Source of the DNA: Laccaria trichodermophora
Taxonomy: Eukaryota; Basidiomycota; Agaricomycetes; Agaricales; Hydnangiaceae
Reading direction: 5' to 3'
DNA: 64,000 bases
Assembly: GCA_018417955.1 (NCBI GenBank)
Contig: JACTVC010000008.1
Span: 682,001-746,000, forward strand
Shown: positions 26,246 through 34,427 of the stretch, piece after piece
Numbering within the stretch: the stretch's first letter is position 1
Layout of the letters: the number at the start of each line of letters is the position of its first letter
Translations under genes and position numbers: made by a program
The notes under the pieces: generated by a model
What the model was told of the DNA's origin: nothing
Databases searched by the model: none
Seen by the model: the letters and a program-made list of their open reading frames with translations, nothing else

Positions 26246-26386
26246 ACCATAATCTATTTTTATTTAGGCAGAGGAAGGCAGAAAACCCTCATTTTGAAGT
26301 TTGTTTACATTTATTTACCAATAGCTTTGACTGAAGTGAGGCTAAAATTTTGTAGTGTCTGCTTTGATGTGTGCACTATTTCTTAA

Positions 26387-26740
26387 TTGGGCAATTTCCT
26401 AATTAGGAAAATTGTTACACTTTTTTCTGCCACACCTAATGTCAGGCACAGTGTGCAGTTAGGTTGGGAACTGTTTCCCATGCTCTTTGGGCCACTGGAG
26501 TTAGTGGCTAGCTCAGTGTTGTCATTGTTCATGACAATGTTTGCACTATTTCCAAATTGGGCCATTTCCTAATTAGGAAAAGCATTACACTATTTTCTGC
26601 CACACCTAATGTCAGGCACAGTGCACATTTAGGTTGGGAACTGTTTCCCACACTCTTTGGGCCACTGGAGTTAGTGGCTAGCTTAGTGTTGTCATTGCTT
26701 ACAATGATGTTCGCATATTTCCCAATTTGGAAAGTCATTC
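26387..26740. repeat. Two-copy tandem repeat, period about 170 bp
   Basis: ATTGGGC(A/C)ATTTCCTAATTAGG starts each copy (26387 and 26557), followed by TTTTCTGCCACACCTAATG, CAGGCACAGTG and TTTGGGCCACTGGAGTTAG blocks. The two copies are nearly identical. Open frames appear on both strands but mirror each other and have no domain. Confidence 0.8.
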
Positions 26741-26759
26741 CATAATATCAGTTTGGCTT

Positions 26760-27110
26760 GTACTGTCCACTTTTTCACTACAACAATTACTAGTGTGCGC
26801 TTTTTTCATTACTAAAGTGTGTAGTGTCCACTTTTTAGACTACAAATGCATGTAGTGTCCACTTTTTAGACTACAAATATTTGTAGTCTTTGCCATTTTC
26901 ATTACAAAGGCTTGTAGTGTGTGCTCTTTTCATTACAAATGTTTGTAGTGTCCGCTTTTTCAACTACAAATGTTTGTAGTGTCTGCTTTTTCAACTACAA
27001 ATGTCTGTAGTCTTTGCTTTTTACATTACAAAGGCTTGTAGAGTGCACTTTTTTCATTACAAATGTTTGTAGTGTCCGCTTTTTGGACTACAAATGTCTG
27101 TAGTCTTTGC
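26760..27110. repeat. Minisatellite of TGTAGT(G/C)T...TTTTT...ACTACAAATG units, left part
   Basis: Units of roughly 30 and 60 bp alternate TGTAGTGTCC(G/A)CTTTTT and ATTACAAATG/ACTACAAATG. The array continues at 30387-30515 on the other side of the hAT element, which therefore inserted within it. Confidence 0.85.
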
Positions 27111-30100
27111 CAGTGGTGTCATGGCTGTCTTGACCTCAGCCATAAAGGTCAGGCTGAAATGTGGGTCAGGCCAATTTGACCGGTCATGTCCGCGGTCAAA
27201 GGGGGTCAAACGTCACATGCATGCCAAATCACAGGTTACCCGCGACATTGATTAGACAGTGAAGCAAGTAATCAAGTAGTGTCGAAGCCGTCTGTATAGT
27301 ACTGGTAGAGTAGAAAAGTATGGAATTATATACACATTACCCTCTGATCCCTTGAGTTCTACAATGCCTCCACCCTCGCCGCTCTGGGGATATTTTCATC
27401 ATGATAAAAGCCATTACAAGAACGACAAGACTCACCTGAATGCATGGTGCAAGGCATGTATTTTGTCCCAAAAGCACGTCTTGCTAGAATTGGATTCATC
27501 GAGAACCAGTAGAGGTGAAATCACGGCAGTGCGGAGTCCCTTGGAGTTGGAGCTGGCCGGTATGTTAGATATCCAATTGATTTCCCTTGATCAACCTAAA
27601 AAAAATACAGCCATTGCAAGGGTCACACCGGTCTGTGGAAAAGTTAATCGCATAAAAACACACATCAAGAATTGCAAATCACTCACCAACGATGAACGCA
27701 CCCTCGCTATATTGACTATACCCCATGCCCCAACGCGCCAGCAAGCTACAGCCCTCCGTGAACACCCCACCCTTGTCCTTTCCTCCCTGACTACATCTTT
27801 TCATCACCCTACCTCTGAACCGCCTATTCCGTCAAATACTGCAACAAGGACTCTCAATCAGTCCGCTGTTCGTCCATCATCGACACCACTATGCATACCT
27901 GCTCTTAAAAGGCCGAAGTCCCTACATGACGGACGTGGTGGTGTACAGACACTTGCCAAAGTTCTTTTGCCGCAAGAACTGCAGGACGACTTTTCCAGGG
28001 ATCTATGCAAGCTGCTCATCTCGTTAAACACAGCATGGGCAGCGGCAGATAATCCCACACTCCATACCTTTGTTCACAAGTGGATTGGGCCTGAGGTCGT
28101 CGTACAGGATCGTCGAATCGTGTCAGGCCAGGTGCTTGACAACAAGGTCAGAAAGGTGGAGAATAAGGTGCGACAAAAGGTTCGGGGAAAGCTGGCAACT
28201 GGCTTGTGTGACGGGTGGAAGAACATTGCCAAGACATCCGTTGTAACCTCGTTGATGACCGTCGACGCAATCGTGAGCCAGTAAAGCTTATTACTCGAAA
28301 TGATACTCACTTCACTGTTCTAGCCATATCTTGTCCAAACCCACGACGTAACGTGTGATGCAAAGACAGGCGACCACCTGTTGAAGTTGGTACTGGAAGA
28401 CATCGTCTTGATGGAAACAAAATACGGCGTTATTCTCATTGCTTGGTGTACAGACGACGGCCCTGATGGGAAGAAAATGCGACGGTTATTGCTTGCTGCT
28501 TTTCCACACCTCATTGTGATTCTGTGTTGGGCTCACCAGGTTAATTTGATTGTTGGAGATTGCCTCGCCATCCGACAGAGTGTGATGGACGACATCAACC
28601 ATGCCCTCGATGTTGTGAAGTGGTTTAACAACCATGGGACTGCCCTGGAACTGCTTCGTCAGGAACAAGTTCTCACGTTCGAGGGACTCAGCTGGACGTT
28701 GATACTTCCCGCTATTACACGGTGGACCGCGCATTACCTTGCTTTGAGCTGAGTTTTGAAGGTGAAGCAGCCGCTTCAAATTTGTTGGACGAGAAACGAA
28801 GACAGGCTCATCACATGTGCTGGGACAAAAGAGGAGTTGCAGGAGAAGGCACGTCAAATTAGAGACATAGTGCGGGATGAGGCCTTTTGGTATCGAATTG
28901 GAAGGTATTTCGTCTGTCCAATCGGTCAGCATTTAGACTTTAACATGGTGATAGGGTCCGAAAAGTTCTCGAACCACTTGCTATTGCAGCCAATGTTGCC
29001 CAGTCATCCCATACCCGCCTCGACCAAGTTCTACTCACCCTCGGAAATCTGATTTGCATTTTCTCCCAACCCACTGAAGCTTTCGATGACGATCTGCAGA
29101 ATGGAATCCTCAAGAGCATTGAAAAGAGATGGAAGAAAGCTGACCAGGATATTTTTATAGTCGCGGTATTCCTTAATCCGTATATTCGAGACACGCTTTT
29201 CAACAAGGAGTTCCTCATGGAGGCACAGCTTTACAACATCGTGGAGAGGACGTATGAGCGCATTCTGCGGTGTGATTCGGACCTCGACTTCTTAGATGCT
29301 TTTGAGGATTACAAGTGGTCGCGTGGGGAGTTTTCTGATGATGAGATGTCGCTCTCACTTATGAAGGAGAAGTTCGCACGTGAGGTATGTTATTCATCTT
29401 CAGATGGCTAAAACCTGACACCAACGCTACTATAGGACGCTCCGCTGGACCTTCGGAAGATCTGGGCTCGGATCGACAAAGGAGTCAATTGTGGGCGAAA
29501 CGGGCTCGTCAAGCTTGCCATACATGTTTTCTCTGTGATTGCAAACTCAGCCAGCTGTGAACGAGTGTTTAGCAAATTCGGAACCACGCACACGAAGCTG
29601 CGTAACAAGCTCAATCCAGAAAGGGTTCACAAGTCGGCCGTCATTGGAATGGAAATCAATCAAGTGCTGGAGGATCACGGTCTTGCTAGAAATCGAAAAA
29701 AGTGCAAGTTCGGTGAGGACAAGTCGACCAATGACGTGGATTTGGAGGTGGAGGTGGAATTTCGAGATTATGCGGAAGATTTAGTTCGGCAGGCTCAAGT
29801 CTCACAGCAAGAAGAGGAACATGACACTGACCACATCCCCTCCTCGATACTACCAATTCAGTCTCAGCCTACCGCCACCACAGTCGTTCCTCCACCCCGA
29901 ACGTTGAGAGCTCGCAAAACTCAAATTACACTTCAAAATCTGTTTAATTACGACATTGACAGTGCTACAGGCGAAGGACTTGGGTTTTATTGGCCGGGGA
30001 GTGTCAAGAATCTTGAGGAGGACTTGCTAGCGCACGAGCGCACAGCTGCTGAAGGCCAGCCTGCTTCCCATCCCCCAACATTGTAACATGATTATGGATT

Positions 30101-30386: not shown

Positions 30387-30600
30387 GTCTTTGCTTTGCC
30401 TTTTTCATTACAAATGTTTGTAGTGTCCGCTTTTTTCAACCACAAATGTCTGTAGTCTTTGCTTTTTACATCACAAAGGCTTGTAGTGTGCACTTTGTTC
30501 ATTACAGGGTGGTAGTCTCAGCAATGAATATGTCATATACAAACACCACAAGAGACTGAAACTGAAACTGAAACTGAAACTGAGTACATAGAATTTTTGC
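30387..30600. repeat. Right part of the split minisatellite and a short CTGAAA repeat
   Basis: Continues the TGTAGT/ACAAATG minisatellite to about 30515. Four tandem ACTGAA units follow near 30556-30582, then sequence leading into the end of the micro-exon array. Confidence 0.7.
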
Positions 30601-30649: not shown

Positions 30650-32767
30650 TTAGTATAGGAGATGTAGCAACCACTAAGAGGAATAGAGATGGTGAACAAG
30701 AAGAAATAAAATAGATAAATACACATACCAAACTTGACAGTTTGCAAAGAAATAGGCTCATTGTAATCTGGATAGCTGTGTCTCTCTCTATATATTTTGA
30801 ACATGAATATCAAGTAAGTGGTAACAGATAAAAAAAAAGCATACCCTCTAAAAATGGGAGAGTTGTATGACACCAAAGATTCTAATATGGTAGAAAATGG
30901 AGTTGACTTGCCCACTATATATTGGAAATAAGTGACCTGGTTAAATAATGTGAAGAAGTACATACTTTCTAACAAAAAGAATGGTTGAAAGAGGAGCTGA
31001 AATTGGAAATGGATCAAAGACATACAAGCTACAAAACATGAGCATTCTTCTATAATAAGAAATAAAAACATACAATCTGATTTAGAATAATCATATATCA
31101 GAGTGATGGAAATGAGAGTGAATGGACAACCTACAGTCTAAAAAAATGAAGTGAAGAGATGTTATAAAATTGGTCTATGGAATGCTTAAACTTGACTAAC
31201 CTTCTTAAAAGATATTGATTGAAGATTGATTACCTGATAAAGAATAATGACTGAATAGATACAGATTGAAAAACAAAATGTACAAAATAAAACTTACAAG
31301 ATATGCAGGAGAGACCACATACTTTCTTAAGAAAAGTAAGGAGTGATAGTGTGATAAGAGTAATTCATGGCGAAAAGCAAAGAAACTCACCTGCTAAAAA
31401 GAAGCACCAAAATATGTGTTACCAGAAGGGTGTACATTGAAAACCAGGCCAACTTACCCACTGAAACAAGACAGGCCACAGTCAGTGTCACCAGAAGAGT
31501 GCACATTAAAAACCAGGCCAACTCACAAACTGAAACAAGACAGGCCACAGTCAGTATCACCAGAAGCATGCACATTAAAAACCAGGCCAACTCACCCCCT
31601 GAAACAAGACCAGCCACAGTCAGTCTCACCAGAAGAGTGCACATTAAAAACCAGGCCAACCCACATACTGAAACAAGACAGGCCACAGTCAGTCTCACCA
31701 GAAGAGTGCACATTAAAAACCAGGCCAACTCACTGTCTGAAACAAGCCAGGCCACACTCAGTCTCACTAGAAGAGTGCACATCAAAAACAGGCCAACTCA
31801 CCTCCTGAAACAAGACAGGCAACAGTCAGTCTCACCAGAAGAGTGCATATCAAAAACCAGACCAACTTACCTTCTGTAAAAGAATGGCCAGAGCATATGT
31901 TTTAGAAGGGTGCAAAATCAAATGCAGGAAAGCATACTTTCTGAAATAGAGAAAATCACATCATAATCACCAGAACAGTGCACAAGAAAGGGAAAGGCCA
32001 GAGGATGTGTCAGCATATGAGTTAATAGTTAATAGGGGAACAACTCACAATCTAGCAAATGGTAGGTGTAGAAGAGAATTGAGTCAGAACATAGTTATTT
32101 CAGAAACTTAATAATAACTTACCCACTAAAGAAATCCCTTATGTTCATACAGAGACAATGTAAATAGACCATATATCACCTTCTAAATTCATAAACAAGA
32201 ACATTAGCTGTATAAGTAGCAAGGTCAACAGTTAATACTTACTTTCTGAAAGAAACAGACAGCTGCTGATAAGATGTGACATGTTATGCAAAATATTGGC
32301 CCACAAACTAATGACAACCATGAGAATAGATAAAAACTTGAACAATTTGTAGACATACATTCTGCAAGAAAAAACAACAATCAGAATAAATCTATTCTTC
32401 TCTTGATGATTGTTTTGTTCTTACTTTCTGTGCTTTATCAATAGCAATAAAATTGTGTCATAACTTGGCTTACATTCTGTAAAACAAATCAATATGCTAT
32501 TTTGATACATCTTAATCACTGTATAGAACCACATACCTCCTATTAACCTTACAGATTAACTTGTGAGCAGAATTACACTCCTGTTACTTACTGTCTGTTG
32601 GAAGATCTCAATAAATAACTGGAGACATCTCCATTATAAACTCTTACTTCATAGAAATCAATGACTTGTTGAAATACCTTGATCAAATTGTTTTTAATAA
32701 TTGACCCTTGCAATGTCTTATACATGTTATGAGATGATAACCATATGAGAAAATTGCAATAACTGAC
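30650..32767 (-). other. Array of 27 single-codon (3-nt) micro-exon candidates, 3' tail of the NACHT gene
   Basis: On the minus strand each unit reads polypyrimidine-AG | NNN | GT. Lowest plus coordinate and minus-strand triplet: 32592 ACA; 32537 GAG; 32474 AAT; 32425 AAA; 32359 AAT; 32305 TTT; 32243 AAA; 32180 AAG; 32123 TGG; 32049 ATT; 31938 AAA; 31871 AAG; 31802 GAG; 31734 ACA; 31665 TAT; 31596 GGG; 31527 TTT; 31458 TGG; 31391 CAG; 31323 AAA; 31201 AAG; 31135 ACT; 31074 ATT; 31026 CTT; 30966 AAA; 30912 TGG; 30845 AGG. Donors are GTNNG in 25 of 27; 32180 has GTGAT and 30912 has GC. Spacing is 48-74 bp except three gaps of 111-122; the 31323/31201 gap holds an eroded unit (31263, acceptor CAA). 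A 59-nt exon (32648-32706) precedes the array; a 4-nt unit (30729-30732) and a terminal exon from 30673 to TAA 30650 follow. 59+4 is divisible by three, so the frame closes. No stop arises among the triplets in this phase. Transcription is unproven. Confidence 0.68.
31391..31873 (-). repeat. 69-bp tandem units, each one intron plus one variable triplet
   Basis: Successive triplets at 31458, 31527, 31596, 31665, 31734, 31802 and 31871 are spaced 69, 69, 69, 69, 68 and 69 bp. The 66-bp remainder is nearly constant. On the minus strand it begins GTGAGTTGGCCTGG, has ACTCTTCTGGTGAGACTGAC (branch-like CTGAC) and ends CTTGTTTCAG. Neighbouring remainders differ at only about 3-6 of 66 positions, while neighbouring triplets differ at 2-3 of 3 positions. 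The long open frames seen on both strands here are consequences of the repeat and are not called as genes. Confidence 0.9.
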
Positions 32768-34427
32768 CTGAAACAAAATCTTTCCATCCTTCACACAGCT
32801 TAAGATCCCTTTCCTTTGATAAGACATGAAATTCAGCAGAGTATTATTCCATGTTTTCCCCTGGAAAATCAGTAAGTTTTCAATGAGAGTTACCAAAGAG
32901 GTCATAATTGATTCATCCAGATTTGATCCTTGCTCCTGGAATCCAAAAAGAATATGGTGTGGCCAATTAAGGGAAGCATACTCAGCCAGATCACCCTCAA
33001 AAAAGTTTTTGACAGGATATTTTTCCAGATGCTGCAAAGACAGTATGGCTAGATGAATGTGTTGCAGAGGAGGATTGATAAAATACTGCCTTGATCGTGA
33101 TTAGATGGTCAAAAAATCCCGGAGAGATGTGTGATAGAGCATAATTGGCTTATCATCATCTCCAGGAATTTTGATAATAGACTGCACTTGCAATAGCCCA
33201 CAAATGACCTCCTCACACTGAAGAGAGAGGAGAGAGCTGAGAAAGGAAATGGATTTGTTCTCTGTCAGAACCATGATTGTTCCAAGAATCTGACAGAAGT
33301 CTTCTGTCCAAGAAGCAGAAGCGAGAACTTGTTCATAGAGTGAATCTAAGCCATTAGCTTCTGATGCCAGAAGTTTTTGCAAGGCCCTGTGTGGTATGAG
33401 ATCTCCACCAACACATTGGATCAATGTAGTAGCAAATGTGAATGAACTGCCAGCCTTGTCAAGAAGTGTAATGAGATCTCAAGCTGATGGCCAGGGCTTT
33501 TGTATTTTCTGCATGACTCGCTGATTTTGGTTATAGATAGAATCAAATGCCTTCTGAAAATGTACTTTGATGTCTGGATGAGCATCAAAATCCTGTAGCT
33601 CCAGACGGTGTAAAAAATGAGCTTCAGAACTATCAAACTTTTTTCGAATATGTTCCTCCACCCTGCTGGTGAGGAGAATCTGGAAAGGAAAATGTGCCCT
33701 CTCAGAAGATGCCCTGAGCAGGACATCAATGAAGTCAGCCATCTCGGCTTTGTCATCACATTCATCAAGAGCATCAATAACAACAACAGAGCTATATGAG
33801 ATTTGTGAAGTGTTGAGATGGATTGGGTCTACGATGAGCCTTTGAAGTCGATGAGCCATAGAGACAGTCAACTCAAGCAGGGCTGGCTCATTCTCAAGAG
33901 CACGTTCAATAGATAGCTTTGCACCAGGAACAGTGAGAGAGATCTGATGGGCAAGAGTAGGAATCAGGCGAGATATATGGCTGCGTTCACCTGCCCCTCG
34001 CAAAAAGAAAAAGCTTCCTAGAAGGCGGCCCTCTGCAGCATAGTGCTCCGCGATGGTTTGCGCCAATGCTGATTTGCCATAGCCAGCTGGTCCGTTGAGC
34101 CAACAGACAACAGCTCGCTTCACATTGTCATGGCCATCGAGCTGCCGTCGGATCTTGGCAATCACCTTCAAACGAGTGCCAGGATCACATCGAGCGACGT
34201 GACCTGCGCGAGTATGTGTAGCATTGCTGACGGGCCTAAGCAAGCTGGCTAGACCTACATGTCATCAATTATATGAGCAGTATTAATGGATTGTAAAACT
34301 TTGACGTACTTGGAACTGGCGGAGGGCCATGAAAAACAACATCGCGGCCGGCGTTTATGAGCTGTGCTCTTCCGGATATGGTGGTTCCGGTAGTGTTTTG
34401 CAGCTGTGCGGCTCTTGACGAATCCAT
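32768..34427 (-). pseudogene. NACHT-domain STAND (NLR-like) protein, two nonsense codons
   Basis: Exon 1 34427-34310 encodes MDSSRAAQLQNTTGTTISGR; a 55-bp intron (34255-34309) follows; exon 2 runs 34254-32768. P-loop WLNGPAGYGKSALAQT (Walker A), SFFFLRGAGERSH, SSVVVIDALDECDD (Walker B) and ILLTSRVEEHIR (sensor-1-like Arg) define a NACHT NTPase typical of basidiomycete STAND proteins. The winged-helix/linker region includes SIIKIPGDDDKPIMLYHTSL and NWPHHILFGFQEQ. Such proteins oligomerise on sensing a ligand through C-terminal repeats and act in non-self recognition; here no WD40 or ankyrin repeat is visible, and the micro-exon array follows instead. TGA 33479-33481 (Arg expected) and TAA 33101-33103 (Gln expected) interrupt an otherwise open frame. 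CpG is frequent in the first 700 bp and rare further 3'. Confidence 0.85.

Follow-up and report, generated by a model that had tools for sequence, protein, structure and literature searches.

The stretch of Laccaria trichodermophora DNA analysed here (64,000 nt of contig JACTVC010000008.1; hereafter the window) carries on its minus strand a NACHT-type gene whose first exons are followed by 27 trinucleotides, each placed between a splice acceptor and a splice donor (Table 1). Taken together, exons 1 and 2 reach the donor at 32768 in phase 0, which exon 3 preserves. By eye, the N-terminus encoded by exon 1 resembles Laccaria amethystina protein P0002. The window copy is probably decaying, because its NACHT exon holds two in-frame stops, TGA and TAA (33481-33479 and 33103-33101); paralogue L010 is open at both.

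Table 1. Features of the array gene in the window
Feature	Position	Strand	Basis or remark
Exon 1	34310..34427	-	ATG at 34427-34425; protein begins MDSSRAAQLQNTTGTTISGRAQLINAGRD
Exon 2, NACHT/NPHP3_N region and part beyond	32768..34254	-	Pfam on paralogue L010; two in-frame stops in window copy; donor CAG|GTCAGT, phase 0
Exon 3, 69 nt, phase 0	32648..32716	-	TLQGSIIKNNLIKVFQQVIDFYE; matching segment in L. amethystina gene model P0046
Micro-exon 1 ACA (T)	32592..32594	-	AG-NNN-GT scan
Micro-exon 2 GAG (E)	32537..32539	-	AG-NNN-GT scan
Micro-exon 3 AAT (N)	32474..32476	-	AG-NNN-GT scan
Micro-exon 4 AAA (K)	32425..32427	-	acceptor weak
Micro-exon 5 AAT (N)	32359..32361	-	AG-NNN-GT scan
Micro-exon 6 TTT (F)	32305..32307	-	AG-NNN-GT scan
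Micro-exon 7 AAA (K)	32243..32245	-	AG-NNN-GT scan
Micro-exon 8 AAG (K)	32180..32182	-	donor weak, GTGATA
Micro-exon 9 TGG (W)	32123..32125	-	AG-NNN-GT scan
Micro-exon 10 ATT (I)	32049..32051	-	AG-NNN-GT scan
Micro-exon 11 AAA (K)	31938..31940	-	AG-NNN-GT scan
Micro-exon 12 AAG (K)	31871..31873	-	AG-NNN-GT scan
69-bp tandem block, 6.6 copies (variable zone of window copy)	31421..31871	-	
Micro-exon 13 GAG (E), variable zone	31802..31804	-	AG-NNN-GT scan
Micro-exon 14 ACA (T), variable zone	31734..31736	-	AG-NNN-GT scan
Micro-exon 15 TAT (Y), variable zone	31665..31667	-	AG-NNN-GT scan
Micro-exon 16 GGG (G), variable zone	31596..31598	-	AG-NNN-GT scan
Micro-exon 17 TTT (F), variable zone	31527..31529	-	AG-NNN-GT scan
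Micro-exon 18 TGG (W), variable zone	31458..31460	-	AG-NNN-GT scan
Micro-exon 19 CAG (Q)	31391..31393	-	AG-NNN-GT scan
Micro-exon 20 AAA (K)	31323..31325	-	AG-NNN-GT scan
Micro-exon 21 AAG (K)	31201..31203	-	AG-NNN-GT scan
Micro-exon 22 ACT (T)	31135..31137	-	AG-NNN-GT scan
Micro-exon 23 ATT (I)	31074..31076	-	AG-NNN-GT scan
Micro-exon 24 CTT (L)	31026..31028	-	AG-NNN-GT scan
Micro-exon 25 AAA (K)	30966..30968	-	AG-NNN-GT scan
Micro-exon 26 TGG (W)	30912..30914	-	donor GC
Micro-exon 27 AGG (R)	30845..30847	-	AG-NNN-GT scan
Terminal coding exon RETQLSRLQ and stop TGA (30760-30758)	30758..30787	-	phase-0 reading, paralogue comparison

The original prediction of 27 triplets between acceptor and donor was borne out by an AG-NNN-GT scan of 30650-32767, which found all of them in order (32594-30845) on the minus strand, with 26 GT donors and the one expected GC (TGG at 30914). 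It had counted G at donor position +5 in 25 of 27; a recount gives 26, the exception being AAG|GTGATA at 32182. The spacing of 48-74 nt stands, with two longer gaps (111 and 122) in place of the three of 111-122 that had been claimed. The claimed frame holds upstream, from exon 2 into exon 3, and fails downstream, where the stop is at 30758 and not 30650.

Several alternative layouts were rejected. The stop at 30650, with the earlier set of 3′ exons, needed an acceptor shift that is missing in paralogues such as L019 and L024. A 59-nt exon 3 would break the phase; phase 0 is kept by a length of 69 nt, or of 60 nt if the exon starts after the CAG acceptor of some paralogues. Unspliced read-through past 32768 is open to the first triplet in several loci (e.g. 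L010-L013, L019), is closed before it in L016, L017, L018, L022, L024 and L025, and would leave the triplets out of phase 0. An intron-like stretch (GTATGT...CTTAG, 30674-30728) lies 3′ of the stop at 30758; many paralogues have a similar one, and it is possibly a 3′ UTR intron.

A dynamic-programming chain on splice-site scores recovers 22, 23, 25 or 27 of the 27 triplets as settings are relaxed. At a spacing of up to 82 nt the array gives a chain of 10, and the longest chain in the rest of the window, on either strand, is 1; 500 first-order Markov resamplings of the array region gave a chain of 3 at most, so that the array greatly exceeds what chance would produce. Weaker units from these same arrays served to train the score model. 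Locus L028 is the cleaner chance test because it lies, like L027, outside the training set, and it yields a chain of 16 at the same spacing. When exon lengths of 1 to 12 were scanned over 16 array loci, length 3 gave 586 strong sites (three bases between the signals being fixed by construction in each decoded unit) and the other lengths at most 30 each, except length 7 (292), an excess attributed to a reading of the one GTGAGT donor with an offset of 4 nt; a length of 3 is thus specific to the arrays.

When the organism's own genome (59 Mb, 77 contigs) was searched at the DNA level, 69 matches appeared on contigs C76, C23, C34, C12 and C13. Arrays are present in 16 of 18 regions taken from these matches; L026 has three starting units and L023 a chain of at most 2. 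By permissive decoding of the sequence, each of these 16 similar arrays holds 19-102 consecutive putative 3-nt exons; the longest, in L024 (G000:C12:1254000-1263900), spans about 7 kb and has 99 or 102 triplets. Next to it on C12, locus L025 is built of units of 63 bp, not 69. A NACHT protein search returned 148 matches, of which some are fragments of the same gene. Another three close NACHT genes (55-73% identity) were read: L027 has nine triplets with a period of about 66 bp, L028 has 29-30 triplets with mutually dissimilar introns, and L029 has no triplet array. The regions read thus yield about 18 NACHT-type genes with triplet arrays, 16 of similar DNA and two more diverged paralogues. In five stretches of 3.2-4 kb beside more distant NACHT matches (L030-L034) no chain exceeded 2, and a DNA search with part of L028 matched L028 only. 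Of the 26 regions read, 18 have arrays, all of them in genes of the close clade; over 100 of the 148 NACHT matches lie outside those regions.

The original prediction was to be given up if no intact paralogue had such an array beside it, but several have one. Of 15 array loci (including the window copy, without L021), eight have no stop in the 498 codons compared in the NACHT exon (L010, L011, L012, L013, L016, L019, L022 and L024); the window copy and six others have stops in this frame. Exon 2 of intact L010 (P0001) matches NPHP3_N at 84.9 bits (cut-off 24.8) and NACHT at 44.7 bits (cut-off 26.7), and so has the NTPase domain of a fungal NLR (NACHT STAND protein). None of the four Pfam matches of P0001, a query made of exon 2 without the predicted tail, is a WD40, ANK or TPR repeat domain. 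Past the gene end in L010-L015 (all on C76) there is an inverted copy, about 200 nt long and 74-80% identical, of the region of the exon 2 end, exon 3 and first triplet. It is present in six of 12 loci checked, with a 44-nt remnant in L016 and none downstream of the window copy, L019, L022, L024 (only 498 nt there) or L025.

Permissive decoding gives an array start of TENxNFxKW or a close variant in 15 of the 16 similar arrays (not L021), and an array end of ILKWR or a variant in 15 of 16 (not L017). In 12 of the 18 loci checked, the array is followed by a terminal exon that starts [RK][DE]T and reaches an in-frame stop in no more than 10 codons; in L015 and L020 the stretch read has no stop, L021 has a short, unrelated peptide, and no matching terminal-exon acceptor was found in L017, L027 or L028. 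Most paralogues have a conserved start, a variable middle and a conserved end of ILKWR and then RETQLS. In 36 pairs from nine loci (8 of the 18 loci, with incomplete decoded ends, being left out), end-zone codons show no clear excess conservation over introns (0.82 versus 0.84 on the N side, 0.87 versus 0.85 on the C side). L028 has the consensus residue of the nine loci at 6 of the 16 end positions (permutation P=0.0004); its codon identity to those ends is 0.63-0.70 and its intron identity 0.64-0.65, against a mismatched-intron baseline of 0.66.

It had been proposed that introns diverge freely outside the 69-bp block while the AG-NNN-GT frame is kept. This is right only in part: the introns of the central block are very alike, and the codons vary instead. 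The 14 loci with units of exactly 69 bp provide 207 of them, in which the mean is 1.71 bits for codon columns and 0.34 for intron columns, although five intron columns are also variable (0.91-1.27 bits). Within loci the introns of these units are 83-99% identical and the codons differ at 61-89% of bases; in L013 differences fall at 67% of codon bases and 1.7% of intron bases. Seven consecutive units of L012, with introns identical on both sides, read GCA AGG TGG GCA AGG GCA TTT. Among 54 within-locus pairs with both flanking introns identical (three loci only, not independent), the codon is the same in 24, and 25 of the 30 differing pairs differ at all three bases, three at one and two at two; random codon reassortment within loci would give 7.2, 8.5, 14.6 and 23.7 pairs with 0, 1, 2 and 3 differences. 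It appears that a codon changes as a whole. Within a locus, introns differ on average by 0.013-0.019 in L012-L015 and by 0.049-0.173 in the other loci that have four or more units; between loci the mean is 0.059 among those on C76, 0.112 between C76 and other contigs, and 0.130 among other contigs. These values point clearly to within-locus homogenisation in L012-L015; in L010, L016 and L024 it is not clear.

Identical introns flanking different codons in a stop-free phase would also be expected had reverse splicing placed introner-like elements, copies of one mobile intron, between all the codons of a formerly uninterrupted exon, the codons being ancestral. Exact placement at every boundary is unlikely, and L011 repeats whole codon and intron blocks with the same intron SNPs, so that duplication of units is needed; we hold such an origin to be very unlikely.

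The reading phase of the triplets is fixed independently, by exon 2. That no stop arises among them in this phase was part of the original prediction and holds over the array family: none of 580 triplets is a stop, where positional composition, with the three positions taken as independent, gives an expectation of 40.6. The two other phases have 26 of 564 and 94 of 564. Likewise, the 309 triplets of the strong-site part (score of at least 24) include no stop; TAG alone was expected 17.0 times, and its absence is not due to avoidance of NAG because AAG, GAG and CAG are used. These 309 triplets comprise 29 codons for 19 amino acids, cysteine being absent. Such stop and codon-usage counts are not independent, the units being kin by descent; L028 is the main independent case. 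The permissive decode with L027 and L028 added has one stop in 684; it falls in the opening unit of L020, which precedes the conserved ACA by 52 nt and was judged a false extension.

Since 69 is a multiple of 3, the block could be an ordinary coding repeat of 23 residues translated without splicing, and in five of 15 variable zones (L009, L012, L013, L014 and L015) at least one of the six frames is indeed open. The remaining ten have stops in all six frames, 49 of 286 spacings are not multiples of 3 (207 of the 286 being near 69 nt), and the conserved GT...AG would go unexplained, which makes this reading extremely improbable.

The third base of each triplet lies directly before the donor. For E, K, R, G, V, Q and L, picked because their G-ending codon is CpG-free, this base is G in 137 of 150 triplets, compared with 626 of 1708 codons for these residues in the second exon of eight intact loci (P=2e-41). 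For A, S, T and P, whose G-ending codon has a CpG, a G-ending codon occurs a single time (TCG) and the third base is as a rule A or T. C is the third base of one in 309 triplets, against 781 of 3984 codons in exon 2 of the same eight loci (P=8e-27). The preference for G fits pairing of the last exon base, before the donor, with U1 snRNA. The branch-site motif CTRAY was not enriched, either in constant-zone introns (2 of 19; 3.0 expected) or in those of L028 (10 of 29; 4.7 expected, shuffles up to 13).

In L028, 28 introns of 48-104 nt separate 29 triplets, each running from GT or GC to AG, and no triplet is a stop. Their mean identity is 54%, versus 53% for shuffled interiors. The proposal that the single-codon micro-exons are under selection for splicing and translation draws support from the avoidance of stops in a single phase, the selection on the third base next to the donor and the non-homologous introns of L028. 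A non-coding reading is a tandem minisatellite whose splice signals were inherited by duplication, the whole array being untranslated and removed as a single long intron between exon 3 and the terminal exon. The central block is indeed a tandem repeat, and removal as one intron also retains phase 0. What this leaves unexplained is the lack of stops, the third-base bias, the hypervariability of codons inside conserved introns, and the 29 triplets of L028 without intron similarity, and we regard it as quite unlikely.

Taken together, the phase-0 linkage from NACHT exon to exon 3 to triplets and the evidence above make it highly probable that these are NACHT (NLR-like) receptor genes with a C-terminal tail encoded one residue per 3-nt exon. 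We read the array as a hypervariable fungal NLR repeat whose unit would be all intron but for one codon. The pre-mRNA would be spliced intron by intron, each 3-nt exon lengthening the exon before it, until a tail of some 20 to 100 residues is complete, which may be the recognition part of the receptor. Unit duplication and recombination between near-identical introns would add, delete and reshuffle codons, and diversifying selection would maintain the differences. The predicted tails show no consistent periodicity: over 15 loci and four angles, two of 60 tests had P<0.05 (L015, 100 degrees, P=0.023; L024, 160 degrees, P=0.001).

Splicing of such an array could also be mainly partial. The array would then be a device for splice variation, joining subsets of 3-nt exons into many tails per gene, which is compatible with a tail encoded one residue per exon. 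Every exon being 3 nt, skipping keeps the frame, and adjacent sites are nearly identical; against this, spacing is held near 69 nt in most units, and the conserved end residues suggest ordered inclusion. We think mainly partial splicing rather doubtful. A further reading, which we put forward tentatively, is a codon-cassette device that would generate receptor repertoires: because each exon is one codon and the introns are interchangeable, recombination in the DNA could reorder codons and the spliceosome could skip any subset without loss of frame, giving many related recognition tails per gene, across strains and possibly within one mycelium.

The closest known systems are fungal NLRs with high-internal-conservation (HIC) repeats (the WD40 repeats of het-d/het-e; ANK; TPR), which the accessible text of PMC4986451 and PMC12222747 describes as near-identical tandem units downstream of a NACHT domain, with few hypervariable codons and length variation; by the former, Laccaria bicolor is at the top of the range for HIC-type repeats (58%). 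The Laccaria arrays share the near-identical units and few hypervariable codons at the DNA level, and would function in a like manner. HIC repeats are translated and fold (propeller, ANK, TPR), whereas in the arrays translation would be limited to the variable codon, the other 66 nt of the unit being intron. We do not class the arrays with HIC repeats because the conserved repeat there is translated: HIC repeats are defined as translated repeats with over 85% identity across 100 residues or more, and in the arrays the 66 conserved nt have splice-like sites at both ends.

Microexon genes (schistosome MEGs and the aphid bicycle and megacycle genes), marked by series of symmetrical exons no longer than 30 nt, evolve fast and string together many tiny exons, as is predicted for the arrays; the megacycle gene has more than 100 microexons. 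As far as the accessible parts of PMC9168663 go, internal exons of bicycle genes are almost all in phase 2, unlike the phase 0 of the arrays, the products are putative secreted effectors and not NACHT proteins, and no array of consecutive 3-nt exons is described. Spliceosomes can use single exons of 1 nt and 3 nt, examples in the portions seen of PMC8831610 and PMC7392893 being plant APC11/VPS55, Drosophila homothorax and troponin T, and NCAM; those are isolated, whereas the arrays have tens in series. Ratchet points of recursive splicing likewise place a donor right after an acceptor, with stepwise removal (e.g. PMC8605326, PMC5126111, in excerpt), but have zero bases between the sites; the arrays would retain three, codon-like, and so differ from ratchet points. 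A functional microexon in Trichoderma Xlr2, said in the available part of PMC11121469 to be the first described in filamentous fungi, is a single one acting as a switch in a transcription factor. Searches of an open-access library, which lacks most subscription papers, gave no description of an array of consecutive single-codon exons.

Among 120 of 404 protein relatives listed, the named ones were all from L. amethystina LaAM-08-1, at up to 79% identity. The gene model P0046 ends ...NLFQ TSQGSIVTRNFIMLLEQIIDFCE T VSNRRTMLLKS, which in our reading would be exon 2 joined to exon 3, the first triplet ACA (T) and then eleven residues running into the first intron; in the other seven L. amethystina models displayed, exon 3 is not spliced in. 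If the predicted tail is real, annotation misses the variable part of a receptor family, since P0046, the sole displayed model going past exon 3, enters the first intron and stops. A search of viral contigs for relatives gave three stretches that fitted a pattern, none of them confirmed. If transcripts confirm the arrays, they would be an extreme gene architecture, in which as many as about 100 residues in a row each have an exon of their own. They would also be a test of how the spliceosome handles dozens of serial 3-nt exons, and a case of immune-type hypervariability carried by codons within near-identical introns.

Directly 3′ of the array gene lies a probable hAT-like transposon (26758-27104, 27352-30086 and 30401-30506) with 31-nt repeats on either side; its match to Dimer_Tnp_hAT is weak, at 17.6 bits versus a cut-off of 21.4. 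The alignment of the window with L010 ends near 30500, and a 170-bp tandem repeat of 1.9 copies is found at 26367-26697.
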